A stretch of 64,000 bases of DNA from Candidatus Cloacimonadota bacterium (lineage in GTDB: Bacteria; Cloacimonadota; Cloacimonadia; Cloacimonadales; GCA-2742885), in the NCBI GenBank assembly GCA_002742885.1, contig PDOO01000033.1, positions 1 through 64,000 on the forward strand, in the 5' to 3' direction. This document shows, piece after piece, positions 19,347-63,274 of the stretch. The notes below the pieces were generated by a model that saw only the letters and a list, made by a program, of their open reading frames with translations, had not been told where the DNA came from and did no database searches. Numbering within the stretch: position 1 is the stretch's first letter; the number at the start of each line of letters is the position of its first letter. The translations under genes were made by a program, and so were the position numbers.

Positions 19347-19753
19347 ATTTATTCCTTATATATCAATTGTGTAAACACAAAAACTGATGTCATATTTTAA
19401 TTTCGATTATCTTAAAAAAGAAAAATCTGATTATCTTAATATTTCAAGCAAAAATTAGGCTTTTTCTTGTAAAGATATTTTTCTCAATTAACCTAAACTG
19501 TTATCTCTATAATTGTAATTTCGTTCCGAAGAAAAATTATTTTATCAGGATAAAGCATTGGAATAATCAGGTTTCATATAAATAATTGTCTCCAATAAAC
19601 AAGTAATATCGAGTGATTTTATAAATTTAACAGATAAAAATCAGATGATAAAAATACTTTCCCGACTAAAACATTGACCTCAAAATACGAAGAAATTTTT
19701 TTTATCTTAAAATATCCCTTATAATGAATATCATAAAACATACAGGAGGCAAA
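19347..19753. other. 407-base divergent intergenic region (PSP1 operon and fucosidase)
   Basis: No gene is supported here. The region is AT-rich and must hold two divergent promoters. Visible elements are a 5+5 dyad (TGTGT-AA-ACACA, 19368-19379) close to the PSP1 start, and a TATAAT close to the fucosidase ATG without a good -35. No riboswitch-like fold was recognised. Confidence 0.5.
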
Positions 19754-21040
19754 ATGTCATTCGTTCCTCGCAAAAATATGCTCTGGTGGCACAATTCAAA
19801 ATTCGGAATGTTCATTCATTGGGGGCTTTATGCTTTGCCGGCTCGCCACGAATGGGTAAAAAATTATGAAGAAATGACTACAGAAAAATATCAAAAATAT
19901 TTTGATCATTTTTATCCCGATCTTTTTGATCCGGAAGATTGGGCAAAACAGGCAAAAAATGCCGGCATGAAATATTTTATTATAACGACTAAACATCATG
20001 ACGGTTTTTGTCTTTGGGATTCAAAATTTACCGATTATAAAGTTACCGAAACTCCCTGGGGAAAAGATTTAATCAAACCGCTGGTAAAAGCGTTTTCAAA
20101 AGAAGGCATAAAAACAGGATTTTATTATTCTTTGCTTGATTGGCATCATCCCCATTTTACTATAGACAGACATCATCCGCAAAGAAATTCTCCCGACAGA
20201 GAAAAATTAAATTCTAAACGAGACATGAAAATTTATCAACAATATATAAAAGATCAAATTACGGAATTATTGTCGGAATTCGGCAAAATTGATTGCCTGT
20301 TTTTGGACTACTCATATCCGGAAGGAGAAGACGGAAAAGGAGCTGAAGATTGGGATTCTGAAAATCTTATAAATCTTATCAGAAATTTACAGCCTGAAAT
20401 TACAGTAAACGACAGACTTGATTTAATGAACAATCCCGGAGGTTGGGATTATATCTCTCCTGAACAATTCAAATTAACTTCCTGGCCTGAAAAAGACGGG
20501 AAAAAAATTGCTTGGGAAACATGCCAAACCTTCAGCGGTTCATGGGGATATTTCAGAGATGAATATACTTGGAAGTCTCCGGATCAACTTTTGGGTTTGC
20601 TTATCGAAACCGTATCAAAAGGAGGAAATTTACTTTTAAATGTCGGACCTGACGGAAGAGGATGCTTTGATAATCGAGCGAAAAAAGCTTTAAAAGAAAT
20701 AGGCAAATGGATGAAATTCAACTCCCGTTCAATTTATAAATGCACGCAAGCGCCCGAATATTTTGAAGCTCCGGAAAATACGATTTTGACTTATAATCCT
20801 GAGTCAAAACGACTTTATATTCATATTTTGGCATGGCCGACAGGAAAAATAACCATAAAAAATGCAGCAGATAAAATTAAATACGCTCAACTCTTACACG
20901 ATGCTTCGGAAGTTCTTTTTTCAGATAAAGACGGAGGACCTCTCAGGGAAAACAAAGTTGAAAAAAACGCCGTTGTCATGAGCTTACCGATAAAAAAACC
21001 TGAAATTGAAATTCCCGTAATAGAAGTATTTTTGAAATAA
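19754..21040 (+). CDS. Alpha-L-fucosidase, glycoside hydrolase family 29
   Basis: The 428-residue enzyme shows the GH29 hallmarks: WWHNSKFGMFIHWGLYALP at the N-terminus, YFIITTKHHDGFCLWDS, DWHHPHF, and the catalytic nucleophile Asp185 in CLFLDYSYPEG. A late SKGGNLLLNVGPDGRG motif is also present. No signal peptide is seen, so it should be cytoplasmic and act on imported fuco-oligosaccharides. The C-terminal beta domain is short. The start at 19754 is set by GGAGG 4 bases upstream; an ATG at 19724 has no ribosome binding site. It is a lone gene with its own terminator. No fucose transport or catabolic genes are nearby. Confidence 0.93.
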   Translation: MSFVPRKNMLWWHNSKFGMFIHWGLYALPARHEWVKNYEEMTTEKYQKYFDHFYPDLFDPEDWAKQAKNAGMKYFIITTKHHDGFCLWDSKFTDYKVTETPWGKDLIKPLVKAFSKEGIKTGFYYSLLDWHHPHFTIDRHHPQRNSPDREKLNSKRDMKIYQQYIKDQITELLSEFGKIDCLFLDYSYPEGEDGKGAEDWDSENLINLIRNLQPEITVNDRLDLMNNPGGWDYISPEQFKLTSWPEKDGKKIAWETCQTFSGSWGYFRDEYTWKSPDQLLGLLIETVSKGGNLLLNVGPDGRGCFDNRAKKALKEIGKWMKFNSRSIYKCTQAPEYFEAPENTILTYNPESKRLYIHILAWPTGKITIKNAADKIKYAQLLHDASEVLFSDKDGGPLRENKVEKNAVVMSLPIKKPEIEIPVIEVFLK

Positions 21041-21174: not shown

Positions 21175-21204
21175 AAAAAAAGCCCCGAACTTCTGTCCGA
21201 GGCT
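21175..21204 (-). terminator. Rho-independent terminator after the candidate selenoprotein gene
   Basis: On the minus strand an imperfect 10-bp stem (AGCC.CG.AC with its complement, two mismatches) is followed by seven T residues, 20 bases after the stop codon. Confidence 0.75.
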
Positions 21205-21224
21205 TGTATAATTTAAAATACCGA

Positions 21225-23468
21225 TTATTTCATAAGAAGAATTTTATCGGTTTTACTGTAATTTGAAGTGTTCAATCTTACATAATAGACACCGCTTGCA
21301 ACAGATTTATTATGATCATCCGTACCGTTCCACTGAACAGAATGAGGACCGGCTTCCATCATTCCGTTTTGAAGTGTTCTTACAACCTGTCCTTTTACGT
21401 TGTAAATAACAAGAGAGACGTCAGTTGCTTTACCGATTGAGAACTTAACGGAAGTAGAAGGATTAAAGGGATTGGGGTAAGATCCGAGGTAAGCTGTACT
21501 GCCTGTAAAGACATCATCATTGTCCATGACAAAGATTTCAACTTCCGGAGAAGGCGCAGATTCCTGATCTCCGTAAAGAGCAGTTACATAATAAGTATAA
21601 GTTTCATTCTGAACAGGAATTTCGCTGTCGGTATAAGTTCTTGCTTCAGGATTAGAAACTACAGAAATCATTTCTCCGTTTCTGTAAACCTTGAATCCGG
21701 TTAAATCTCTTGTTTTTACGGCAACAACCTTTACATCCCCTGCTCTGGAGTAAGGTTTTTCGGAAATTGTTTTTGAGTAAGAGACCAAATCAGCTGTATC
21801 AATATTAATTACTCTCTCTTCGTCGGAAATACTTACAGCATCAATAAACCAAACATACCATAATCCGTCATTTGTAGGTCCGTCAACAGCTTGCCAAGCA
21901 AACTTTACGGTTTCACCTGCATAAGCGTTCAAATCAATATTAACGGGAGAATCATACATGTTATCGCCTTCCGGTAAAGCGGAGGCATCCCAAAGTTCTG
22001 TCCAAGTTGAACCGTTATCGGTTGAAATCTTAACATAGTAATGATCGGCATGAGTAGAACCGTAATGACAATAAGTCCAGAAATTAAGGAACATTCCGTT
22101 TCCTAAAGTGTAATTATCGCTGATCAGCCATTCATCTTGATGACCGTAATCCCACCCGAGTTTTGCTTGAAATTCGCCGTCAACGGGAACAACATCTCCG
22201 GACGGATAAGAAACGATACCTTCTTGCATCCAACTTTGAGCAACATTAGTTACTACTGCATCCCAACCTGCCGGAGGAACTGATTCTTCAAAGCTTTCAC
22301 CTTCAAATTCGTCTCCGCCGTTGCCTTCGCCCGGCATAGTCCAGGTAAGCAAAACGTTATTCTCGTAATCGTTTGTAATGTCAGCTGTCAAAGTTTCGGG
22401 AGCAATCAAGTCATCTCCGCCGCCGTTACCTACGGTAAAAGTATATTCTGTCGTTCCGTTACTTCCGCCCTGTCCTTCACTCAATACTTCTCCGTCTGCC
22501 GCAACAAATTCCCAGGTATTTTCATTTCCGTAACCGTCTGCAGCCGTGTAAGTATAGGTATAAGTTCCTTCTTCAAGCTCAAATAAAGCTTGATTTTCAG
22601 ACTCGCCTTGTCCGCATGAATATTGCTGACCTTCGAAAGTTATATAATTGAAATTTCCGTTATATCCCCATCCGTCACCGTATGAATCATGCATATAAAG
22701 AGTTACAATATTTGAATTAGGATCATAGACGGTAACGTTAAAATCGCATGAAGCATTATCTTCACCTGCTGTTGCGTTAATTATAACGGAAGTTGAACCG
22801 GATGTATTTCCTGCCGTAACAGTTAAATTGTTTCCGTCAAGTTCAGCTGAAGCAATATCAGCATTATTGCTTTGAACGGTAAAACTGATTTCATTTCCGT
22901 TAGGATCGATAAATAAGTTTGAAATGTCGAAAGAAAGACTTTCGTTGTATCCGATAATTTGATCATCAATTGAATTAATTTGATGAAGATGATTAAAATC
23001 ATTGACAGCTTGATTGACATAAGGGGTTACTGAAGCACCGTTGTCTCCGTAGTAAAGCTGATACCCAGGACCGATTACTGCAAAGAACGGAACATATCCG
23101 TTTCCGAATGCAGCGTAATGATTGTACATGGCGCTGCTTGCGGGATAAGTTTGATCAGGAACAGTTCCGGCTGCTTCCCAGTCTGTAGTTGATACAAAAA
23201 AAGCGCTTTGATCTGCTTCATAGTTATTTGCCCATATTGATTGTATATTCGGCGCCGCCGCAACACAACCCGGTCAGCCGGTACCGCCGAAGAAAATCAT
23301 AACCGGTTTTCCGGCATCAATCTGTTCGTAAATAGAGGTTGTTCCGGATTCTCCTCCCGGAATCTGATAATCGAATGTTATATCATCTACAATATCTCCG
23401 ACATCGTATGCGGCAAATAATCCGCAGGTAAGCAAGATTGCCATGATAAACATCAGTACTCTTTTCAT
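21225..23468 (-). CDS. Candidate selenoprotein: exported thioredoxin-like/adhesin protein with in-frame UGA (U65-P-G-C68)
   Basis: Read through one in-frame TGA at 23276-23274, the gene encodes 747 residues. In order: a signal peptide (1-19, ending GLFAA), then a thioredoxin-like domain. In that domain PVMIFFGGTG is followed by the UGA, then PGCVAAAPN and later GYVPFFAVIG. Next come Ig-like segments, a 'cleaved adhesin' domain around 450-560, an FN3 domain, and the C-terminal sorting module (SYPNPFNPSTSVKFSI, YNVKGQVVRTL, final KILLMK). The UGA takes the place of the first cysteine of a CxxC redox motif. A stem-loop of bacterial SECIS type follows it. The start at 23468 has GGAG 6 bases upstream. 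Both flanks (64 and 682 codons) are fully open in this frame and contain matched halves of one domain. A point mutation or sequencing error (TGC or TGT to TGA) would give the same picture; selAB/C/D are not in the window. Confidence 0.75.
23241..23268 (-). promoter_or_regulatory. Candidate bacterial SECIS element downstream of the in-frame UGA
   Basis: Five bases after the UGA (minus strand) a stem-loop begins. UUGUGU pairs with AUACAA (one G.U), then a 2x3 internal loop, then CGGC pairs with GCCG around a GGC loop. The apical loop begins 17 bases after the UGA and its first base is G. The published bacterial SECIS model asks for 16-37 bases between UGA and loop and a G among the first two loop bases; both are met. 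Hairpins of this size also arise by chance. Confidence 0.55.
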
Positions 23469-27936: not shown

Positions 27937-30933
27937 CTATTTCATCAATAGCATTTTTCGGATAAATAATTTTTCTTTGGTCTTTATCCGATAAAAATAA
28001 ATTCCCGAAGATTGAAGTTTATTTTGATTGTCTTTACCATTCCAAAAAACGCCGTTTTTTCCTTTCTCGTAAATTTCCGGAGCAAAGTTTTTAACAACCT
28101 GTCCTTTTACATTATATACTGTTATTTCAGTTTTCTGTTTTTCCGCCAATTCAAACAAAATTTCAGTTCCCGAATCTCTGCTTGAATTTTCAATTACGAA
28201 AGGATTGGGACGACTGCCCAAAGGACGGGTTTCAAAAACCGGATAATTCTCGTTGTCGTAAATATTGATTTCTATTTCCTCGGTTTCCGTTGCTCCTCCT
28301 TTTCCCGTCTCAAAAACAGGAACTGCATAATATGAATACGTACCGTTCGGTAAATCCGCATCAAGATATGTTAAGACATCATTTTCGGTTTGAGCAATGT
28401 TTTGGCTGTTACGGAAAATCTTAAATCCGGTAAGCAATCTGTCTCTATAATTTGAACCGACATTTCCGTATCGAAGCATTTCCCAAGTCAGAGTAACATT
28501 ATTGCCTTCCGCCTGAATTACAAGATTTCCGGCATTTGCCGTAACTTCATCGGTTGTTACGGAAACAGTATCGGAAACAGTATATCCCATATCATTTACC
28601 GCTCTGGTAAAATAGTCGTAATTATTTCCGTAAGAGTAAGTTGTATCTTGATAAGATGTTGAAGTTACGCTTGCAAGAAACTCGCCGTTTCTGAAAATTT
28701 CATATTGGTTTACCGTACCGATTTCGGGAGCGTCCCAAGCAACAGTCAAAACAGGATCCGAGAAATTTGCGTTCATATTCAAAGGTTTGGACAGTTTTAT
28801 GATATTATAAGTTTCTTCGGCAATATCAGACGGCAAAAAACCTTCGGCATAAGCAATTGCTTTTACGGTTACTGTGTCCGTTATCTCAAAAGGAGATTCA
28901 TAAAGAATAGACGATGCGTCAGGATCGGAACCGTCCAAAGTATAAAATATTTCTGCATCGGGAGTTTGACAATTCAGATAAACTTCCGCAACATTAAAAA
29001 AATCATTTCCGGGAGGATTAATAACCGGCGTTGCGCAAATATCGGCAAGATTTCGGTAAATAACATTATTGCTTCCGTAAGAAATAATGTTTCCTTCCGC
29101 GCAAAAAATTCCTAAAGCTCTGTTTTTATTGAAAGTCAATTCCGGCAAGGTTTCGCTTGTCCAAGTTGCACCGTTATCGGTTGATTTCATTATTACGTTT
29201 TCTGTTCCGCAGTTATTCGGAGCAGAAGAATAACCGGCAACAAAGAAATTTCCGTCAAGGTCAGATGTTACGCCTCTTATTTCTTCGGAAGTTTCTTCTT
29301 CCGCCTGAATCCACGATTCGGCAGTTAAACCTCCTGAAGTCGTATAATAAATCTCTCCGTCTTTGTTTACCAAAACACCGTGATCCTGGTCTTTAAAATG
29401 AATATCGTAAATTTTAGAATCACCTGCGGTAAACATTTCCCAAACGGATCCGCCGTCGGATGTTTTAAAAACCTTACCGCTTTTGGAAACAGCTAAAGCA
29501 TTATTTTCGTCAAACCAAAAACTTTTGTATAATCTTTCAGAACCGCCTATATTTTCTCCGGAGCAAAGCGTCCATGTTTCGCCGGCATCAGTTGTTTTGG
29601 CAAATTTATTGCCCGGTCCCATAGCAACTCCTACTGAATCATTTACAAAGAAAAAGTGATAAAAATATTTGGAAGAACTTATGCCTTCGACAGTCGAAAC
29701 GCTCCAACTTTGCCCGCCGTCGGAAGTTTTATATATTTTTCCGCCTGTTTTCCCCGAAACGAATCCGGTGTCTTTATCGAGGAATTTCACTGCCGTAAAT
29801 TTTTCATTTAAGTCGCTGACCGGCAAAACCTCAAAACTGTTTCCTCGGTCAGAGGTTTTGATAAGATAAGAATAATATCCGACAAAATACCAGGTTTCTT
29901 CATCTCCGTAATCCCCCGAATAAAGGGCGTTATAAGGAACTGACTGCTCTGTCCAAAAATTACCGCCATCAATTGATTTAAGAATATTTCCGTACCAACC
30001 GCAACCGACAAGTTCCCCGTTTCCGTTAAAGTCTATACCTTCAAATTTTTGCATATAATTGTTTTGTATAGAGATATAATCTTCTGAACCGAAACTGAAA
30101 CCGAGCAATTTTCCATCCCAACCGGCAGCATAGCATAAATCATCAGTCAAAAGAATATCTCTGTATTTGCAATCTTCAGAACCTGCCGAAGAAACGATAT
30201 TGTAATTTGCAAAAAAGTCAGTACTGTGTATGATTGTACCGTTTTCTCCTCCTATATAAGCATGACCGTCATAAATCTCCGCAACATAAAGATCAAGATC
30301 ATTTTCGGGATCAAGATTATGACTTGTCCAAGTTACGCCTCCGTCTTCGGATTTGAATAAATTTTCGGCAACGTCATCTGAAGCGATTCCTACCGCAATA
30401 TAAACAGAATCGGCAGCAGTAATATCGGTAAGCTGAGTTCCGGCATCGTACAACACAGTCCAATTATTTCCGCTGTCGTTTGTTTCAGAAATTTTTCCGT
30501 CAAAATTTACGGAAAGCCATTTATTTTGAGAAATCATACAAATACTTTTAATACTTTCCGCAGAGACCTGATCAGAATAAGAAGTTATTTCTGTCCATGA
30601 GACTCCGCCATTCTCGGTTTTTATCAATAATCCGTCATAACCGCCTATTAACCCGATGTTTTCATTTATAAAATCAACGCAATTCAAATCGCGGTAAATG
30701 TCATTTTCGAGATCAAAAGCCGGAGTATTGACAAATTCATAAGTCTCTCCGTTGTCAGAGGAATGCGCAACACCGCCTGATGAGCCGACTGCCCAAACAT
30801 GATTTCCGACAGTATCCAAAGAATAAAAATTAACAGGAAAACCGCATTGACGAGATATTTCCCAACCGCTCAATGTCGTTGTCCAAAATACGACGGATAA
30901 AAGATAAATAATTTTCTTCATAACTAAAATCAT
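27937..30933 (-). CDS. Exported BNR/Ycf48-like repeat protein with FN3 domains and C-terminal sorting module
   Basis: The 998 residues start with a signal peptide (MKKIIYLLSVVFWTTTLSG). Residues about 25-640 hold at least ten Asp-box repeats of the form S/T-x-D-x-G-x-x-W (SEDGGVTWTS, TSDGGQSWSV, TTDAGETWTL, STDNGATWTS). This predicts a beta-propeller such as in Ycf48/BNR proteins. A chitobiase/hexosaminidase C-terminal-type domain follows (FYTLDGSDPDASS), then two FN3 domains. The sorting module comes last (RPNPFV, YNVKGQVVKNF, VFWNGKDNQN, final KMLLMK). The ATG at 30933 directly abuts the TAA of the upstream aminopeptidase gene; a second ATG at 30921 gives the same signal peptide. No enzymatic residues are identified, so a binding or adhesion role is likely. 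Confidence 0.85.
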   Translation of the reverse strand: MILVMKKIIYLLSVVFWTTTLSGWEISRQCGFPVNFYSLDTVGNHVWAVGSSGGVAHSSDNGETYEFVNTPAFDLENDIYRDLNCVDFINENIGLIGGYDGLLIKTENGGVSWTEITSYSDQVSAESIKSICMISQNKWLSVNFDGKISETNDSGNNWTVLYDAGTQLTDITAADSVYIAVGIASDDVAENLFKSEDGGVTWTSHNLDPENDLDLYVAEIYDGHAYIGGENGTIIHSTDFFANYNIVSSAGSEDCKYRDILLTDDLCYAAGWDGKLLGFSFGSEDYISIQNNYMQKFEGIDFNGNGELVGCGWYGNILKSIDGGNFWTEQSVPYNALYSGDYGDEETWYFVGYYSYLIKTSDRGNSFEVLPVSDLNEKFTAVKFLDKDTGFVSGKTGGKIYKTSDGGQSWSVSTVEGISSSKYFYHFFFVNDSVGVAMGPGNKFAKTTDAGETWTLCSGENIGGSERLYKSFWFDENNALAVSKSGKVFKTSDGGSVWEMFTAGDSKIYDIHFKDQDHGVLVNKDGEIYYTTSGGLTAESWIQAEEETSEEIRGVTSDLDGNFFVAGYSSAPNNCGTENVIMKSTDNGATWTSETLPELTFNKNRALGIFCAEGNIISYGSNNVIYRNLADICATPVINPPGNDFFNVAEVYLNCQTPDAEIFYTLDGSDPDASSILYESPFEITDTVTVKAIAYAEGFLPSDIAEETYNIIKLSKPLNMNANFSDPVLTVAWDAPEIGTVNQYEIFRNGEFLASVTSTSYQDTTYSYGNNYDYFTRAVNDMGYTVSDTVSVTTDEVTANAGNLVIQAEGNNVTLTWEMLRYGNVGSNYRDRLLTGFKIFRNSQNIAQTENDVLTYLDADLPNGTYSYYAVPVFETGKGGATETEEIEINIYDNENYPVFETRPLGSRPNPFVIENSSRDSGTEILFELAEKQKTEITVYNVKGQVVKNFAPEIYEKGKNGVFWNGKDNQNKLQSSGIYFYRIKTKEKLFIRKMLLMK

Positions 30934-33780
30934 TTATTTCATCAGTAATATTTTTTGAGTTTCAGTGAGGCTTTCTGATTTTATTTTTATGAAATAAACC
31001 CCGTTTCCGAGAGCATCGTCTTTTTTAAACGTCAATTTACTTAGTCCTCCGGCAAATTTCTTGTCGGCAAGAGTTTTAATATGCTGACCCTTTATATTGA
31101 AAAGAGAAATATTTACATGTTGAGGAGAGGGAATTTCAAATCTTACGGTAACGACGGAATTTCGTAAATTTCCGTAAACCGGATTAGGATACACCGCAAA
31201 ATCCGTTTTCTCCGGTTGACTTGGATTTTCTTCGTTACCCGTTTCTCCGAGCGATGATAAAATTTGTCCCATTAAATTGTAAGCCTGAGATTCGTAAGTA
31301 AAATAAAGCGGAAATCCGAAACAAAAAATTTTGCCGCCGTTTTCATAATAATTGAAAACCGAGTTTCCGTTCCACTGGCTGCCTTCTCCAAAATAAGTTC
31401 CGGCTGAATGATCTTCATTTTCAAAAATAAAAATATTATTAAGAGTTCCGTTCCAATCAGGGAAAATTTTATCGGGATCAACAATAATCTCCGGATAATC
31501 TGCGGAGTTCATTGCCGAAAATTCCGTTTCCGAAGTAAATTGAACATCAGAATCAAAAAGGATATTTTTTATCATCGGACTTAAATTACCTAAATGATTC
31601 CAACCGGAAATAATAAGATTTCCGCCGGCAAGAACGTAAGAAGCCAAATAATCTTCAACATCATCAATATTATCGACAGCCATATCGTCGGCATGATAGA
31701 TCACGGTTGAATAATCCGCTAAAGTTGTTGCATCGATTATTTCGGAAGCATTTATTTCATCAACATCAACCTGCGCTATATTTCGATAAAAGCCGTCAAC
31801 TTCCTCATCGGAGGGAAGTCCGGGATTTCCGTTTCCGTCAAAAGTTTCATCTGCAATCAAAATACCTTGATCCATGGGAAATTCAACCGGAGTAACGGAA
31901 ACAGCATTTGAGAAAACGGAAGAAAATGTTCCCGATTTTGCTTTTACCTTATAATACACAGTTTGCATGTTATCGGTTTCATCAATATAAAAATTTTCAT
32001 TAATTCCTGATTGTACAAGAGAATAACTTCCGTTTTCCGAATCCGATTTGTAAAGATCAAAACCGTCTGTTTCAAATTCATTGAAAGTTGAAGGCATAAA
32101 AATCACGGCTTGACCGTCTAAACCGAAAACCTGCGATAAGGTCGGAATCAATTCAGATGCGTTTTTGTACAAAGTCCATTCATGAGGATCTATTTCAAGC
32201 TGAAAATCATTATCAATCGTAATATCGGCTTCCGTTGAAGAAAATTCCGGAGAAGCGGTTATCAATATCGAATCTTCAACCGTTCCGTCCGTAAAAACGA
32301 AAGGAATTTCAAAATCAAAATCGGTATCGCTGTTTGAAGTTGATTGAGCAAATATTTTTACTCTGCCGGCATTTTCATCCTTAAATACGGAATAGCGAAT
32401 TGAAGGAAGTCCGGAACCGTAAATCCATTGATCGAAAAATCCGTCCAGATTCATACCTGAAACTTCTTCGCATTTGTCTTTAAAATTTTGCGTTACCACA
32501 TAACCGTAACGATAAGCGTCAAAATAATTTTGCAAAATAGAGAAAAAAGTCTCCGAACCTGTTTTCATTCGCAACATATTCAAAACGGAAGCTGCTTTTT
32601 CATAAGACGGAGGCGCAAAATAATTGTTGTACGCAGGATCATAAATGGTATGAGGAGTGTTTCCTGCCCAGCTTTTGTAACGATTGTGAATACGGGTTCT
32701 GACATAATTTTCCATGGATTCTCTGCCGTGCCATGCTTCTTCGTAGATCGCTTCCGAAATAACGGCAAAACCTTCCGACAGCCAAACATCCTTCCACGTA
32801 AGAGGAGTAAGACAATTTCCGAACCAATGATGAGAAAGTTCATGGGCAATGGTGTGTTCTCCCGTATGAGCAGTCGAAATATGCGTTGTGTTAAGAGTTG
32901 TCATTGTTTGATGTTCCATGGCGCCGAAAGTTACCATTCCGACTACGGCATTACCGTATTTTTCAAAAGGATAAATTCCGTATTTATTTTGAAAAGTCTC
33001 CATCATAAAAGGTAAATTAGAAAGAGCTTCGGGAGCCGCTTCTTCCTGAGTCGGCAAAATAAAATTCTGAATGGGAATTTCTCCGAAGTTTTGATTATAT
33101 TCAACATAATCCGCCGCATGAATAACACTCAGATAAGTTGCGACGGGATTGGAGCCTGTCCAGTGATGGGTTCGGGTTCCGTCATTGTTATCGGAGATTG
33201 ACTCTCTTATGCCGTTGCAAGCGACAAGCCAGTCATCTCGAACGGTAACGTGAAAATCAATAACAGCTTTGTCCCAAGGATGATCGTAAGCCGGCCACCA
33301 CCAACGACATCCGCTCGGATCGGAAAGCGTAAAAAATCCGTTATCGTCAAAAATCATTCCTATATGATAAACGTCATTACTGGTTTGAGGATTACCTGAA
33401 TAACTTACTTCCGTAGTAAAAGTTTCACCGTTTTCTATATCGGCAAGCGGAATATTTATAACACCGTTTTCGTGAGTAAAAGAAGCATTTTCTCCGTTTA
33501 CCTTCACTTCTTCAACTGTTAAAGCTTCCAATTCGTAATTAATTTCAGATAAATCTTCTTCAGCCGAAACAACGGCGGTTACCGTTCCGGAAAGATATTG
33601 AGATTCATCATCAACCGCTATCGAAATATCATAAGACTGAACATCAAATCCGTGAGCAGAATCGGCTCTTGAATGATATTCGTTCCATGCTTTAAAATAA
33701 TCTTCTTTTCTTTCGCATCCGCAATAAGCAGAAAGGCAGACAAAAGAAAATACAAGAGCTGCAAAAAATATTTTTTTCAT
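30934..33780 (-). CDS. Exported M1 family aminopeptidase with C-terminal sorting module
   Basis: The 948-residue protein begins with a signal peptide ending near SAYCGC. The M1 metallopeptidase core is clear: GAMEHQ substrate-binding motif near residue 285, zinc site HELSH about residue 312, and the third ligand Glu in WLSEGFA 18 residues later. A Tyr-containing region follows (YEKAASVLNMLR). After the peptidase come FN3-like segments and a probable ThuA/glutamine-amidotransferase-like region (about 650-830). The FlgD-like sorting module ends KILLMK. It would release N-terminal amino acids from peptides outside the cell, which fits an amino-acid-fermenting lifestyle (inference). It is translationally coupled to the following BNR-repeat gene (TAA-ATG). 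Confidence 0.92.
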   Translation of the reverse strand: MKKIFFAALVFSFVCLSAYCGCERKEDYFKAWNEYHSRADSAHGFDVQSYDISIAVDDESQYLSGTVTAVVSAEEDLSEINYELEALTVEEVKVNGENASFTHENGVINIPLADIENGETFTTEVSYSGNPQTSNDVYHIGMIFDDNGFFTLSDPSGCRWWWPAYDHPWDKAVIDFHVTVRDDWLVACNGIRESISDNNDGTRTHHWTGSNPVATYLSVIHAADYVEYNQNFGEIPIQNFILPTQEEAAPEALSNLPFMMETFQNKYGIYPFEKYGNAVVGMVTFGAMEHQTMTTLNTTHISTAHTGEHTIAHELSHHWFGNCLTPLTWKDVWLSEGFAVISEAIYEEAWHGRESMENYVRTRIHNRYKSWAGNTPHTIYDPAYNNYFAPPSYEKAASVLNMLRMKTGSETFFSILQNYFDAYRYGYVVTQNFKDKCEEVSGMNLDGFFDQWIYGSGLPSIRYSVFKDENAGRVKIFAQSTSNSDTDFDFEIPFVFTDGTVEDSILITASPEFSSTEADITIDNDFQLEIDPHEWTLYKNASELIPTLSQVFGLDGQAVIFMPSTFNEFETDGFDLYKSDSENGSYSLVQSGINENFYIDETDNMQTVYYKVKAKSGTFSSVFSNAVSVTPVEFPMDQGILIADETFDGNGNPGLPSDEEVDGFYRNIAQVDVDEINASEIIDATTLADYSTVIYHADDMAVDNIDDVEDYLASYVLAGGNLIISGWNHLGNLSPMIKNILFDSDVQFTSETEFSAMNSADYPEIIVDPDKIFPDWNGTLNNIFIFENEDHSAGTYFGEGSQWNGNSVFNYYENGGKIFCFGFPLYFTYESQAYNLMGQILSSLGETGNEENPSQPEKTDFAVYPNPVYGNLRNSVVTVRFEIPSPQHVNISLFNIKGQHIKTLADKKFAGGLSKLTFKKDDALGNGVYFIKIKSESLTETQKILLMK

Positions 33781-33831
33781 TATTACTCCGAGTTTTGAGT
33801 TATTTAGTTTTTATAAAAATATGAATAAAAT

Positions 33832-47809: not shown

Positions 47810-50800
47810 TTATTTCAGAAGCATCATTTTTTTGATGTTTTTATAATCGGAAGTTTGCATGGAACAGAAATAGATTCCGCTGGCAACTTCTCTGTTTTGG
47901 AAATCTTTTCCTTTCCAAGTTACTTGATAATTGCCTGCCTTCATAAACTCATCGACAATAACTTTAACAAGTTGACCTTTTGCATTGTAAATTATTAATG
48001 TTACGTCATCATCTTTATTGACAGAGAATTCTATCGACGTTTCAGGATTAAACGGGTTGGGATAATTACCTTTCATTTCCGTAATCAACGGGATAATATT
48101 ATCTTCTTTACCGTCAGATCCTTGAACATAAATATCTTCCGTATTGGAATGAACAGACTCGTATTCACCGTAATAAATTGCAGTTACATAGTACTCGTAA
48201 TCACCTTGTTCTAATCCCGTATCAATATAAGATCTTGCTTCGGGATCTTCCAGGTAATCGAGTAAAGTATTATTGCGATATATTTTGAATCCCGTAACTT
48301 CTCTTGTTAATCTGACTGCTCTTCCCGAATTATTTCGAGTAAAATTATTTGATCGCGAGAAGCTCCATTCCATGAATACAGAGTCAAGATTAGTCGATAA
48401 ATCAAGTCCGTAAGGCGGCATCATAGCTTCAACAGTAACTTCCTGCTCATTTGAGGCAGGAGAATCGGAAGTACCGTTATGAACAGCTTTTACCCAATAA
48501 ACATGTGTTCCAGGCGGTACCATTTCGTCAATGTAAGTTAACTGATTTGCTGGAATCGTTGCAATAGGCGTATCTTCATTATCTCGGAAGATCTTATATC
48601 CTGTAACTTCACGATTTGAAGTTCCGGAGTTTCTGCTTTTGCGCAGTATTTGTCGAGAATTTCTTTGAGGCTGCTCCCAACTTAAATTTACGTTAAACAT
48701 CTCCACTTCGGCAAGAAGGTTTTGAGGAGGAGCGGCAAAAGAAATTTCCCCTTCTATAAACAATTTATAATCTCCGAAATTAGTTGATCTGCTTCTCGGA
48801 TAATTGGCAAAATAAGAAACTCTCAAGAAATAGAATCCGCCTGCATCAACATTATATGATATTTCAGGCTGCAGATTTCCGTGAGAATCATCATTTTGAG
48901 CAATATATCCCCCTAAGTCAACATCGGAACCGTCTATGGCATTCGGACCGTAAAAATAGAATCTGGCATCCAAAGTTGATAATTGGTATCTCTCGGTATA
49001 CATAAAAAGGTCAGTTCCTTCCGCAGCATAGAAAACAAACCAATCGGAGTCATCCGCGTCAAAAATTGAATAAATCGCGCCGTTTGTCGGTCCGTAAAGA
49101 GGCGTTGCCGTTGTCGGCTCGTTTCCGTTATCCGGATTTGGATGCATAGAAAAATCTTGGGTTATTTCCATGCTGTCAACAACAACGCTGCCAACGGAAT
49201 AATTTGTATCAAAATCCAATCCCATACAATAAATATCATAAGTTCCGTAAAGTAATTCTGCTGATTCATAATGCCCGTTTTCATCAGCAGCATACTGAAT
49301 GCCGTTAATTATGACCTTGGCTTGTGCTACAGCTTCTCCGTTATCCTGATTGATAACGTTTCCGCTGATAATTCCGTAATGATGAGGCTCCATTTCAAAA
49401 TTATAATTTACTGAATCCTCATATACTTCTACCTCTTCGGGAGAAATATAATTGAAATAATGCAGTTTTGATGCCGTAACCTGGTATGTATTCCTCAAAA
49501 CGGCACTGTAATGATAATATCCGTTTTCATCAGTAGAAGCAGAATATTCTCCGCCGTAATTCACGACAACGCCTTCAACAGGTTCGTTTGTTTCCGAATT
49601 TGTAACCGTACCGGTTACAACAGAAAAAAGATGATGACTTAAACTTATGTCATAAACAGTATCTTCTTCAATTTCAACAGAATCGGGAGATATATAATTA
49701 TAGTAATTTGCGGCTGTTGCCATTACGACATAACTTCCCCCGGGAATAGAATTTAATTGATAATAACCTGCCGTATCGGTTATAGCAGCCGAACTGCTTC
49801 CGTTAAGAAAAACTGAAGCTCCGACTACAGGTTCTCCCGTATCTTCGTCTGTAACGATTCCGGAAAGCGAAGAAAGAGTTGTTTCTGTTCCCGTAATACT
49901 GAGATCATAGTCGCCGCAGGAGCTGCCGTATCCGTCAACAATAACGAAATAAGAACCTGCTTGAAGAGCTAAATCAGTAACTTGCGATTGCAGATCTCTC
50001 GAATTTCTCTGTTCTTTAGGAGCAGTTTTCATTAACAGATTATTGTTGCGGTAATAATCATCATTATATCCTATGTAATTGTCCGGTCCCGGAGTCCATC
50101 CCGGGACATCAGAATGATCTTCGTAAATTGCAAGTTTTGTATCATATTCGGATCCGAGAAGAGAAATTGTAGTAACATAATCATTTTCTAAAATCAATTT
50201 ATAGACAACATCTTTACCGTCTGATCCCGGTAAATCATAATCATTGTTATATTCAGTTGTATTCCCTTCGTCTGTATATTCAACTCCGTCAAAATTAACT
50301 TCATAAGCATTCATAAACAAATCGCCGTCGAGAGGTTCATATCCGCTCCCGCTTACGGGAATTGAGACTTCGCCCGTTATGCTGTTGCTTTGAATAACTA
50401 AAGTATCAGAAAAATCTCCTTCTTCTTCGGGGCTAAAGGAAATGAAAACGGTTTCCGATTCGAAAGCTTCTATTACTTCAGGAAAATCAGCGTAAAAAGG
50501 CGACGACAATTGTACGTCCGAAATAACTAAATCTGACCCTCCTGAATTATTCAGAGCAAAAGCGAAATACTCGGTTCCTCCGATTCCTGTCGGCGGAAAT
50601 GCTATATTGGAAATATTTACAACCAATTGAGGTTCATCGGTCTGAGCAATAACGGCAAAGTTATCGACATACATATTTACATCATTATTGCTAACGGTTG
50701 ATTCTCCGTAAAAAGCAAATTTTACGATTCCGGTATAATCGCTTAAATCGATACTTTGGTGAACTCCTGTCGGCGGTATTTGAGATTCGCTGTTCCAAAG

Positions 50801-52078
50801 TTCGACAATATTTTCTTCCGACCATTCGTTTTCATACTCGTTCTGAATCAATAAGGCAAATTTATCGTCCTCACCCAGAGATGTTTGAACCGATCCGGAA
50901 TAAGGAGTAAGGGCAAGATCAAATTCCAGTCTGTAAGAAACAGAATTATCTCCCAAATCAAAATAAGGAGAGAACATCCAATCTTTTACATGAGTTGACC
51001 AAATATTAATTCTGGCAGAACCTGATGTTCCGACATTTCCGAATCCGTCCGCAGTCCACGAGGATGATTCTGAGGTAAATTCCGTCGGATTTGCCAACAA
51101 ACCTTTTCCTTCTGTCCAATTTACCGGCGGATAATTCTCAAAATCTTGCATGTGCGGCGGCGTTATGACAGGATTTTCAATGGTCGTAAAAGACCAGATA
51201 GGGCAGTTCTCGGCTTCTCCCGCCTCATTTGAAGGAACAACTTGCCAATAATAAGTTTGCATCCATTCCAAATCACTGAAGTTATAAGTTGTTGTTTCCC
51301 CCAGAGATGTTCCGTTTTCAATTGAAGTCGGCGACTCGGTTCCGCCTCCGTCGCTTCCGAAATACAATTTATAGTCGGTTGCTCCAGCTGAAACTTCCCA
51401 TTCCAAAACACCATTTTTAAAAATATTATTCGCTCCGTCCGCCGGACTGATGAGATTTACGGCAAAAGGCGGATCGTCATTACTCTGATAACTTATGACA
51501 ATATCATCAATGCAAACAGGGTCTCCCGAACCGACACTGCCGTCATTTCGCCATCCGAAGACAAGACGCATTGCAGTTTGACCTTCCGTAAGCGGCAAAG
51601 GAATATTAAGTGTCGTAAAAGTTGACTGGTTATTCAAATATCCGCTTACCGCATAATCAGGATCAAGAATAGCACCTGCTTCGGGAACTATATCCGGAGT
51701 TGTCCAATAAACTCTTCCCCAATCCCAAGAAGTAACTTCTCCCATGCCTTTCCAAGCAAAAGACAAATTAAGCAAGACTGCATCTTCCGGAATGTTTATA
51801 TCGCGATAGAAGAATACAACCGAAGGGGAACTTGTATTGTAAGCAGCGTTTGTTCCGTCTTCCGAAACAAATGCTCCGTAATTTCCGTTTGCAGCTCCTA
51901 CTGCTCCCGTGTACCATTGATTTGTTTGCTGATCGTTTACGACATGCCAGTCCTCAAAAGTTCCCGATTCAAAATCTTCAGTATAAACAGGATCGGCAGC
52001 AAGATTGAGAGTTGCCGTTAATATCAGCAGAAAAACAGATAAGAAGGTCAATTTTTTCCAATGATTTGAATTATTCAT
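47810..52078 (-). CDS. Large exported multidomain adhesin with carboxypeptidase-regulatory repeats and C-terminal sorting module
   Basis: The 1,422-residue protein has a signal peptide (FLSVFLLILTATLNLAAD). In order: a cleaved-adhesin/MAM-like domain (about 25-190), an FN3-like domain (200-305), and a second adhesin domain (310-480). A HYDIN/ASPM-type beta domain (490-590) and a pre-peptidase C-like domain (600-740) follow. Then come three successive CarboxypepD_reg-type repeats (about 745-990: SGIVTDEDTGEPV, TGTVTNSETNEPV, SGNVINQDNGEAV), another pre-peptidase C-like domain and two FN3 domains. The sorting module (GNYPNPFNPETSIEFSV, YNAKGQLVKVI, WKGKD, final KKMMLLK) ends it. No catalytic centre is seen; surface binding is likely. 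The start at 52078 has GGAGG 6 bases upstream. A dedicated terminator suggests monocistronic transcription. Confidence 0.88.
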   Translation of the reverse strand: MNNSNHWKKLTFLSVFLLILTATLNLAADPVYTEDFESGTFEDWHVVNDQQTNQWYTGAVGAANGNYGAFVSEDGTNAAYNTSSPSVVFFYRDINIPEDAVLLNLSFAWKGMGEVTSWDWGRVYWTTPDIVPEAGAILDPDYAVSGYLNNQSTFTTLNIPLPLTEGQTAMRLVFGWRNDGSVGSGDPVCIDDIVISYQSNDDPPFAVNLISPADGANNIFKNGVLEWEVSAGATDYKLYFGSDGGGTESPTSIENGTSLGETTTYNFSDLEWMQTYYWQVVPSNEAGEAENCPIWSFTTIENPVITPPHMQDFENYPPVNWTEGKGLLANPTEFTSESSSWTADGFGNVGTSGSARINIWSTHVKDWMFSPYFDLGDNSVSYRLEFDLALTPYSGSVQTSLGEDDKFALLIQNEYENEWSEENIVELWNSESQIPPTGVHQSIDLSDYTGIVKFAFYGESTVSNNDVNMYVDNFAVIAQTDEPQLVVNISNIAFPPTGIGGTEYFAFALNNSGGSDLVISDVQLSSPFYADFPEVIEAFESETVFISFSPEEEGDFSDTLVIQSNSITGEVSIPVSGSGYEPLDGDLFMNAYEVNFDGVEYTDEGNTTEYNNDYDLPGSDGKDVVYKLILENDYVTTISLLGSEYDTKLAIYEDHSDVPGWTPGPDNYIGYNDDYYRNNNLLMKTAPKEQRNSRDLQSQVTDLALQAGSYFVIVDGYGSSCGDYDLSITGTETTLSSLSGIVTDEDTGEPVVGASVFLNGSSSAAITDTAGYYQLNSIPGGSYVVMATAANYYNYISPDSVEIEEDTVYDISLSHHLFSVVTGTVTNSETNEPVEGVVVNYGGEYSASTDENGYYHYSAVLRNTYQVTASKLHYFNYISPEEVEVYEDSVNYNFEMEPHHYGIISGNVINQDNGEAVAQAKVIINGIQYAADENGHYESAELLYGTYDIYCMGLDFDTNYSVGSVVVDSMEITQDFSMHPNPDNGNEPTTATPLYGPTNGAIYSIFDADDSDWFVFYAAEGTDLFMYTERYQLSTLDARFYFYGPNAIDGSDVDLGGYIAQNDDSHGNLQPEISYNVDAGGFYFLRVSYFANYPRSRSTNFGDYKLFIEGEISFAAPPQNLLAEVEMFNVNLSWEQPQRNSRQILRKSRNSGTSNREVTGYKIFRDNEDTPIATIPANQLTYIDEMVPPGTHVYWVKAVHNGTSDSPASNEQEVTVEAMMPPYGLDLSTNLDSVFMEWSFSRSNNFTRNNSGRAVRLTREVTGFKIYRNNTLLDYLEDPEARSYIDTGLEQGDYEYYVTAIYYGEYESVHSNTEDIYVQGSDGKEDNIIPLITEMKGNYPNPFNPETSIEFSVNKDDDVTLIIYNAKGQLVKVIVDEFMKAGNYQVTWKGKDFQNREVASGIYFCSMQTSDYKNIKKMMLLK

Positions 52079-52429
52079 TTTTCCTCCGCATAAAAAAATC
52101 ATTCTTTAAAATAAATTGGTTATTGTTCAAAAAAACGGATTTCGAAGTTAAAATAAATTTCAGGTAAAAGACGTTAAAAATCTGCAATAATTTGACATTT
52201 AATTAAAATCTATGTTTACAAAAACAATTTTCAAACAAATAAAAGTCAACCTTTAAATTTAAAATTATTGTTTTTCTAAAGGATTGTAAACTTTATGTAT
52301 AGCGCAACTTTCGGTAACAGCCGGAACACATTGAAGATTATATAGCATTCCTCCTTGACAAAATAAGTTTAAATCCCGAAACAACCATAAAAATATTCGA
52401 ATCATTTAAAGTGCACGGAGAAGGGATTT
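52079..52429. other. 351-base divergent intergenic region (adhesin and chemoreceptor)
   Basis: No gene is supported. Two TTGACA hexamers point toward the chemoreceptor (52192-52197 and 52355-52360). Neither is followed at 16-18 bases by a good -10. No sigma28-type flagellar promoter was recognised. Confidence 0.45.
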
Positions 52430-61672: not shown

Positions 61673-62668
61673 TTACTTCAAAAGGATCATTTTTTTGGAA
61701 CCGGTATAACGTCCCGATCTCATTTTAAAATAATATATTCCGCTTGCAACATCTTTGTTGTTGCTGTCTTTACCGTTCCAAATAATCTCGTGCATGCCGG
61801 AACCGTAAACGCCTTTGGCAACCGTTTTAACTTTTTCGCCTTTAGCATTGTAAACAGTAAGATCAACTTCTCCTGCTTCATTGAGAGAGAATTTCAAAGC
61901 AGTTGACGGATTAAAGGGGTTAGGATAATTATTGTAAAGAGTTACGTTATTTACCGGTAACTCAATATTATCATTTTCGGTATTAACGACAATATCTTCC
62001 GGAACTCTCGGATTGAGACCGAATTCATCGTAAGAAAAATCAAGGATACCTTGGATAGCGGCAAAATGATCTCCTTCTTCAACAACAATTTCAGGATCAA
62101 CCGAATCAAGATAGAAGAAACCGTCGTCTATTTGCAATTCGTTTCCTTCTGCATCTTCAACATACCATTGTCCGTATTCGTCTTGTTCTCCTCCTTCGGC
62201 AACAGTAAGGTCTTCTGTTCTGATAAAAACGCTTTCGTATGCTTCGTTTTGCGCTTCTTCGACAGAAACAACGGAAGGATCGGGGATAGGATTTCCGGAT
62301 GAAATTTTTGTAATTGAGAACTGATCGTAATAAGGATCATTAAAATGTCCGGTTATTTCCGTAAATCCGTAATATTCAACAACATGACCGGTAACGGATA
62401 CCATGTCTCCGGGTACCAGCATAGTATCTCCGCAGGCAAAAACGTAAATACCGTTCCAAGCCCCGCCTTCGGGAGAGGAAATGTAAATATTGTCTTTATA
62501 TCCTTTGTAACCGGTTGCGACAACAACACCTTCAACTCCTGAGACAACCTGATCTGCGTAAGGAGAATTTCCTTCCGGATCTTCGGTGTACTGGATATCA
62601 TGGATGGTAACGGCCATAGCCGAAACAGCAAATACAGTGAGTAAGATTGCCATAAAATTTTTTTTCAT
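61673..62668 (-). CDS. Exported OB-fold (DUF5689/YhcR-like) protein with C-terminal sorting module
   Basis: The 331-residue protein has a signal peptide (MAILLTVFAVSAMA). A nucleic-acid-binding-type OB-fold region spans about 20-225: VSGVEGVVVATGYKG, YISSPEGGAWNGIYVF, GDMVSVTGHVVEYYGFTEI. Such a region often precedes secreted nucleases, but no nuclease domain is present here. The sorting module follows: NNYPNPFNPSTALKFSL, YNAKGEKVKTV, IWNGKDSNNKDVASG, final KKMILLK. GGAAGG precedes the ATG. The function is unknown; DNA or ligand binding at the surface is a guess from the fold. Confidence 0.85.
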   Translation of the reverse strand: MKKNFMAILLTVFAVSAMAVTIHDIQYTEDPEGNSPYADQVVSGVEGVVVATGYKGYKDNIYISSPEGGAWNGIYVFACGDTMLVPGDMVSVTGHVVEYYGFTEITGHFNDPYYDQFSITKISSGNPIPDPSVVSVEEAQNEAYESVFIRTEDLTVAEGGEQDEYGQWYVEDAEGNELQIDDGFFYLDSVDPEIVVEEGDHFAAIQGILDFSYDEFGLNPRVPEDIVVNTENDNIELPVNNVTLYNNYPNPFNPSTALKFSLNEAGEVDLTVYNAKGEKVKTVAKGVYGSGMHEIIWNGKDSNNKDVASGIYYFKMRSGRYTGSKKMILLK

Positions 62669-63274
62669 TTTTCCTTCCTCTTTTCTTTTTTTTGATTTTA
62701 GTCATACAAAATCTTCAAGTAAATTCATAGGATAAAACGAACATTACGCTTTACCGATATTTGTCAAAATAAAAAAGATAGAGACCCGATAAAAAAAATC
62801 AAAATTATTGTCAAGCATACTGTAGCAAATCAGAATTTTAACAAAAAAAATAAATTTATATTTTAATCCGGCAGTTTATCTAAAAGAAACAATTTCTTAT
62901 TCGTTAAAGATTTTCCAGGAGTTCATAAGACAAAATATAATCATAATCTTATATGTGTAACAACAAATATTGAATATTTTTTTTATTTCAACTAAAAGAT
63001 GCGCTTAATAACGTCAGAAACTTAATATCCCGGGATAAATGCCTGTAAACGCAGGGAAACATAAAAGAGGTAATTATATTAATTACAGTATCTTACCGAT
63101 ATAATTTTCATTAATTCCATTTATCTTTTATTTCTCTTGACTTTTTATTTGCTTTTTTGAATTTTATAAAAAATGTTTTAAGGAGGTTCTTATGAGAAGG
63201 AAAACATAATCGCAAAAAATATATTCAGCAAAAATATTTAATTCACAAAAAAAATAAACATTAGAGAGGAAAAA
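62669..63274. other. 606-base divergent intergenic region (OB-fold protein and papain-like protease)
   Basis: The region is very AT-rich. It has no ORF of note except a five-codon mini-ORF with a strong Shine-Dalgarno at 63180-63209. A TTGACA-type hexamer upstream of the OB-fold protein gene (near 62760, minus strand) lacks a good -10. No RNA gene was recognised. Confidence 0.5.
63180..63209 (+). other. Five-codon mini-ORF with strong ribosome binding site, upstream of the protease gene
   Basis: AAGGAGG is followed 6-7 bases later by ATG AGA AGG AAA ACA TAA (63192-63209), about 65 bases before the protease ATG. It may be a leader peptide (Arg-Arg-Lys-Thr) or the remnant of a lost gene start. 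Confidence 0.4.

Follow-up and report, generated by a model that had tools for sequence, protein, structure and literature searches.

The window, by which we mean the whole stretch of 64,000 nucleotides of a Candidatus Cloacimonadota genome that was analysed (contig PDOO01000033.1), contains on its minus strand, from 23468 to 21225, a reading frame of 747 residues that runs from ATG to TAA with a lone in-frame TGA at 23276-23274. The initial annotation had described this locus as two ORFs of the same frame and strand parted by one TGA, placed at the first cysteine position of a CxxC motif, and translation of the frame confirmed both points: the TGA is residue 65 and is followed by P66, G67 and C68 (U65-P-G-C68). 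In a listing of ORFs under the standard code, the locus was represented only by a 634-amino-acid ORF starting at 23129, a headless version without the signal peptide and the active site. The features of the locus are as follows.

21225..23468, minus strand: candidate selenoprotein gene, 747 residues, with UGA as selenocysteine (Sec) at residue 65 (translation and homologues)
23409..23468, minus strand: predicted signal peptide region, MKRVLMFIMAILLTCGLFAA (inspection; starts of related frames by pattern and by eye)
22986..23408, minus strand: thioredoxin-like (AhpC/TSA, redoxin, ResA-like) domain with a UPGC active site (domain scans, profile alignment)
23274..23276, minus strand: putative Sec codon UGA, U65 (TGA in 48 of 48 domains at the alignment column)
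23250..23260, minus strand: putative bacterial SECIS core hairpin CGGC-GGC-GCCG, loop from 17 nt past the UGA (comparison and folding)
21828..22298, minus strand: choice-of-anchor J domain, NF038128, residues 391-547 (60.4 bits, cut-off 30)
21237..21479, minus strand: type IX secretion system (T9SS) type A sorting tail, TIGR04183, residues 664-744 (36.8 bits, cut-off 23)
21180..21205, minus strand: intrinsic-terminator-like hairpin directly downstream of the gene (sequence)

Genes for ribosomal protein S2, EF-Ts, an amino-acid kinase and ribosome recycling factor lie upstream, and an alpha-L-fucosidase gene (PF01120, 293.8 bits) at 19724-21040 adjoins the frame on the opposite strand. The label 'adhesin', given to the product earlier, was not retained, as domain scans beyond the thioredoxin-like domain returned the choice-of-anchor J domain and a T9SS type A/FlgD-Ig tail, where the TIGR04183 match overlaps a FlgD_ig match. 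The sorting module was indeed common to four other proteins of the window, with a like tail at the ends of the frames 27937-30933, 30934-33810, 47810-52105 and 61673-62701, two of which were flagged by a regular expression and two by eye from their last 30 residues.

The thioredoxin-like domain of the window protein scored below the Pfam cut-offs (18.4 of 26 bits for PF00578 and 17.9 of 27 bits for PF13899), and none of the NCBIfam families matched it at E ≤ 0.5. Across 47 domains of the family, PF00578 matched 32 and PF08534 matched 29 at E ≤ 0.01. Profile matches to solved thioredoxin-fold structures were obtained with 4fyu (E 2.3e-5) and 3hcz (E 3.2e-5); the CxxC motif was in register with both of them, and the proline segment was aligned in 4fyu only. 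Thioredoxins have a cis-proline at the position where this family has a conserved NGYVP segment. On these matches, the domain of the window protein is assigned to the thioredoxin fold superfamily as a predicted member. NCBIfam models gave weak matches over the 47 family domains, the lone selenoprotein model among them being TsoB (2 of 47, best E 0.0021). A likeness to ResA/TlpA proteins was also found, with an NCBIfam model of that group matching 26 of the 47 domains at E ≤ 0.01 and the PDB ResA structure 4nmu matching the family profile (E 9.1e-4).

In order to see what homologues have at position 65, as the initial annotation had proposed, the TGA was followed through related frames. When 124 genomes of the phylum were first searched, 39 matches were obtained in 33 genomes, with one TGA in 37 matches, none in one, and two in one weak match. 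Most of these rows went into a profile, which then returned 38 matches with E < 1e-30 in 32 genomes, among at most 31 candidates scored per genome; within this set, 37 had exactly one TGA, and none had a Cys form at the Sec position. The remaining strong match, L064, has SPSS in place of UxxC and has thus lost both active-site residues. Below the strong matches there was a gap, followed by at least 47 matches of at most 42 bits; 12 of 47 weaker matches were read, and they comprised 11 Cys-type ResA/TlpA-like sequences (FWAxxCxxC) and one decayed copy, L065. A further scan of contigs added five loci, four of which have U (three from Delongbacteria and one from an 'uncultured bacterium'), leaving one Cys-type outgroup. 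The U-bearing contigs hold four (L053), three (L054), three (L055) and one (L052) copies of the domain. Excluding the Cys outgroup (L056), the serine copy (L064) and the decayed copy (L065), 51 frame hits yielded 48 domains, 37 from 32 genomes of the phylum and 11 on the four Delongbacteria-type contigs.

All 48 aligned domains have TGA at the Sec column, in the motifs UGGC (23), UPGC (9), UPSC (6), USGC (3), UNTC, UDGC and UISC (2 each) and ULDC (1). The alignment (A3) has 47 rows, leaving out L053 6531, a Delongbacteria copy that runs into an assembly gap, and shows conserved residues on both sides of the TGA. Such a codon, at the same column in every domain and flanked by conserved residues, is not there by chance. 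A tree of 58 rows was built from 46 UGA domains, L064 and 11 Cys outgroups, without L053 6531 and the cut copy L055 3337. The outgroups, ResA/TlpA-like relatives from the same phylum with CxxC, fell on one side of the tree with support of 100/99, unlike the UxxC family; the point at which they join the UGA family is unsure, because long branches meet there.

An ordinary CxxC protein could also show a TGA in such a motif, through a nonsense mutation or a mistake in the assembly, and the window genome is known from one assembly. L064, without both active-site residues, and the decayed L065 fit this explanation as well and count against strict conservation of the UGA. The recurrence of the TGA in 48 of 48 domains, in the phylum (32 genomes) as well as on four Delongbacteria-type contigs, speaks against it, as do the lack of any Cys among the 38 strong matches (at most 31 candidates scored per genome) and the codon-locked hairpin described below. 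The concern that the TGA belonged to a single decaying copy is answered by the same recurrence and the same hairpin, and we regard an error or a mutation as having almost no chance of being the right explanation.

Several related loci deserve description in their own right. L064 (1001-3053, G063:C160) is a second copy with frame and tail intact, alongside a UGA copy in the same genome. L065 (1229-1560, G106:C101) is a remnant of the UPNC type whose frame breaks down shortly behind the UGA; its genome gave no match to selA, and the copy is possibly a relic of lost Sec decoding. The Delongbacteria contigs L053, L054 and L055 have three or four family genes each, every one with its own UGA. In a Delongbacteria-type genome, a divergent relative (L092 6723-8003, G126:C3) has a CxxU-like motif, ACYSUSG, with a predicted hairpin GAUGCC-GGA-GGCGUC behind the TGA and selA about 1.7 kb away.

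The residues AAP behind the UGA are written with nearly invariant codons: GCG in 44 of 45, GCG in 47 of 47, and CCG in 41 of 46 cases, compared to 7.9% for GCG and 17.8% for CCG elsewhere in the family genes. The codon bias at these three positions was G 216, 239 and 115, and the next largest biases in the domain (G 47 and 41) were at glycines two codons after and one codon before the UGA. This codon block folds as CGGC-GGC-GCCG, with a distance of 17 nt from the UGA to the loop. The fixed hairpin, with G in the first two loop positions, was present in 44 of 48 domains, while in 200 rounds of synonymous resampling it appeared in 0.11 domains on average and never in more than 1. One of the four domains that lack it, L051, had no other hairpin under the test used. 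The hairpin matched the published bSECIS model as given in the available passages of a 2026 review (PMC13188914), which calls for a loop of 3-9 nt, a stem of 4-16 bp, G in the first two loop positions, a distance of 16-37 nt from the UGA and an MFE of at most -7.5; in the window, the loop is GGC, the core has 4 bp, the distance is 17 nt, and the energy is -12.6 kcal/mol for 45 nt.

Covariation also supported the hairpin, with a score of 0.164 that was reached by none of 500 shuffles. Two-sided changes were counted in three of the four pairs, and two of these pairs are sound: C-G to A-U at columns 17-27, seen in L047, two L054 copies and L053 8374, and G-C to A-U at columns 19-25, seen in L053 8374. 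The third (columns 20-24) is not, since it rests on L053 6723 alone, where the predicted fold is shifted; this divergent sequence has its own predicted seven-pair hairpin, with the loop GGUC, one nucleotide further on. Slid controls had lower covariation scores, but the +3 slide had more pair types (6 vs 5). RNAalifold on the alignment favoured another helix (columns 9-12 with 19-22), which was rejected because it has no pair with two-sided changes, as the inner hairpin has. As a single sequence, the window stretch behind the UGA did not stand out in stability from its dinucleotide shuffles (z -0.18 to -0.89), and the case for a SECIS element was for that reason taken from comparison. Against synonymous versions the stretch was moderately stable, with 47 of 1000 versions equally stable, and over the 48 domains the mean z was -1.47, with 43 below zero. 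An exact SECIS pattern run over the 124 genomes hit 45, including some without the family, and gave one hit in the window genome, at 23250-23276. Some of the hits probably arose by chance, and the pattern was thus kept as a cross-check alone. Two genomes without the gene family, from two families of the phylum, share a near-identical 27-nt hit (G053:C28:31074-31100 and G065:C265:10775-10801).

The search for the Sec machinery, also proposed at the outset, found every component in the window genome: a tRNA-Sec (Rfam 60 bits, gathering threshold 47; ARAGORN anticodon tca), selA (524.7 bits), selB (360.6 bits) and selD (356.9 bits), each of the three protein matches over its cut-off. Thus, Sec decoding is possible in this genome. 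Its selD has an in-frame TGA of its own, in the segment ASGUGAKLGPG, followed by a predicted hairpin. A Cloacimonetes-type tRNA-Sec is mentioned in the available part of a 2017 paper on tRNA-Sec. Among the 124 genomes of the phylum, 61 had a selA match (58 over the cut-off); it was present in 31 of 32 genomes with the family (30 over the cut-off, that of G100 being a fragment), in comparison to 30 of 92 others (Fisher p 3e-11, not corrected for relatedness). The one family genome without a match, G062, is 61% complete. All four Delongbacteria-type genomes with U-bearing loci had selA. Additionally, selA lies directly downstream of the family gene and on the same strand in seven of the eight family genomes of one lineage, f13, with 83-147 nt between the family gene's stop codon and the open selA frame. 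The two genes are on different contigs in the eighth genome, G121, whose family gene is close to the end of its contig.

These data also bear on decoding without selenium, in which TGA would be taken as tryptophan, through reassignment or leaky reading, or in which the ordinary machinery would insert Cys. Cys stands at this position in the 11 ResA/TlpA-like relatives examined, and low-level read-through is compatible with the sequence. The complete Sec machinery and its co-occurrence with the family, together with a SECIS-type hairpin fixed at the right distance, argue against such a reading. TGA was also used as a true stop elsewhere in the window, as the initial annotation had held, since it ends 7 of the 43 stop-to-stop frames with at least 200 codons, a set not filtered for overlap. 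L053 8182-9870, with TGA both in the UxxC motif and right after the sorting tail, appears to use the codon in both ways, the second TGA probably ending translation. We consider decoding without selenium very improbable. With Sec machinery, TGA in 48 of 48 domains and a codon-locked SECIS-type hairpin all in support, the candidate selenoprotein is upheld, and the window gene very probably encodes a true selenoprotein in which the UGA at codon 65 would be read as Sec. Most likely, SelB with Sec-tRNA reads the codon by means of the hairpin, which starts 13 nt behind the UGA.

The product would then be exported through its signal peptide and reach the cell surface by type IX secretion, for which its C-terminal tail would be the sorting signal. 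SprA was found in the window genome (484.5 bits, neighbours in frame), and the tail was above the NCBIfam cut-off, both as in T9SS type A cargo (Por_Secre_tail), so that the window protein is classed as predicted cargo of this type, and we infer its secretion to the surface. Of 23 family frames ending in a stop within the DNA examined, 15 contain the exact tail motif YPNPF and four a PNPF or PNPV variant (by eye), two have dockerin-like repeats at the end, and two are cut or gapped. L060 and L061 differ from type A cargo in that dockerin-like repeats at the end, identified by eye, replace the T9SS tail. T9SS cargo with Sec was not found in a search of open-licence papers, covering title and start of abstract.

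If the protein is a selenoprotein, its UxxC thioredoxin-like domain probably has a redox role at the surface, where it could act as a selenol/thiol oxidoreductase in disulfide exchange or in the reduction of a peroxide-like oxidant. Extracytoplasmic thioredoxins usually receive their electrons through DsbD/CcdA proteins. This route is not evident here, since a search of the window genome, which is 93.6% complete, found no membrane domain of the DsbD/CcdA type (PF02683). A neighbouring possibility, which overlaps with the explanation above in that the protein is again a selenoprotein, is that the domain acts before or during secretion, in periplasmic folding or in selenium or metal handling; the link with selA could, for instance, mark a selenium-status or storage protein. 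The adjacency of selA in seven genomes and the missing DsbD/CcdA-type donor would agree with this, but one Sec per protein makes a poor store, and the conserved UxxC and proline segment seem to point to redox catalysis. We consider such a role unlikely, though it deserves more weight than either of the alternatives without Sec, and we prefer an oxidoreductase at the cell surface.

Cys homologues are usual for selenoproteins but do not define them. According to available passages of the 2026 review (PMC13188914), Cys homologues exist for almost every selenoprotein, and the customary search for Cys/Sec pairs depends on them. As practically every copy of the present family has UGA, it is hard to see by such a search. 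The review reports many UxxC thioredoxin-like selenoproteins, none of which, in the passages available, could be tied to the family by description. The nearest, listed in its Table 1 as Prx-like thiol:disulfide oxidoreductase and 'Redoxin family protein' (UxxC; PF00578/PF08534), share with it the UxxC motif and an AhpC/TSA-redoxin-type fold, whereas the family has a long secreted architecture, a T9SS tail and no Cys among the strong matches, a comparison of descriptions only. Thioredoxin-fold bacterial selenoproteins found from UGA frames, as far as the available text describes them, resemble the family in fold and in detection through UGA; they differ in being small, in belonging to PF13192 and in having a Cys homologue in the same cluster. 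The available text of PMC13188914 had no occurrence of cloacimon-, delongbacteria, secreted, exported, periplasm or signal peptide, and 'extracellular' occurred once. No link to the family was seen in the passages available from PMC13188914, PMC9312934, PMC1088965 and PMC5330540, and the parts of Cloacimonadota papers that were term-searched had no word in selen-. Papers on this family were likewise not found in the open-licence literature, mostly title and start of abstract, which is weak evidence of absence. Set apart from the listed selenoproteins by description, the family reads as a new and apparently Sec-only selenoprotein family, whose architecture is new and whose adherence to Sec is unusually strict.

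Taken as a whole, a Sec-only family of redox enzymes that reach the surface by type IX secretion, spread over two phyla, adjacent to selA in one lineage and without DsbD/CcdA in the window genome, is a tentative reading to which we give slightly less than an even chance. If it is true, these anaerobes would bear a selenol on their outer surface. The substrate and the electron source can be guessed at: the domain may draw its electrons from a reductant outside the cell, for example sulfide or low-molecular-weight thiols, or may itself act as an oxidant. Selenium use would then reach type IX cargo, and the phylum of the window together with Delongbacteria would offer many sequences for studying SECIS recognition and why Sec, not Cys, is used outside the cell.
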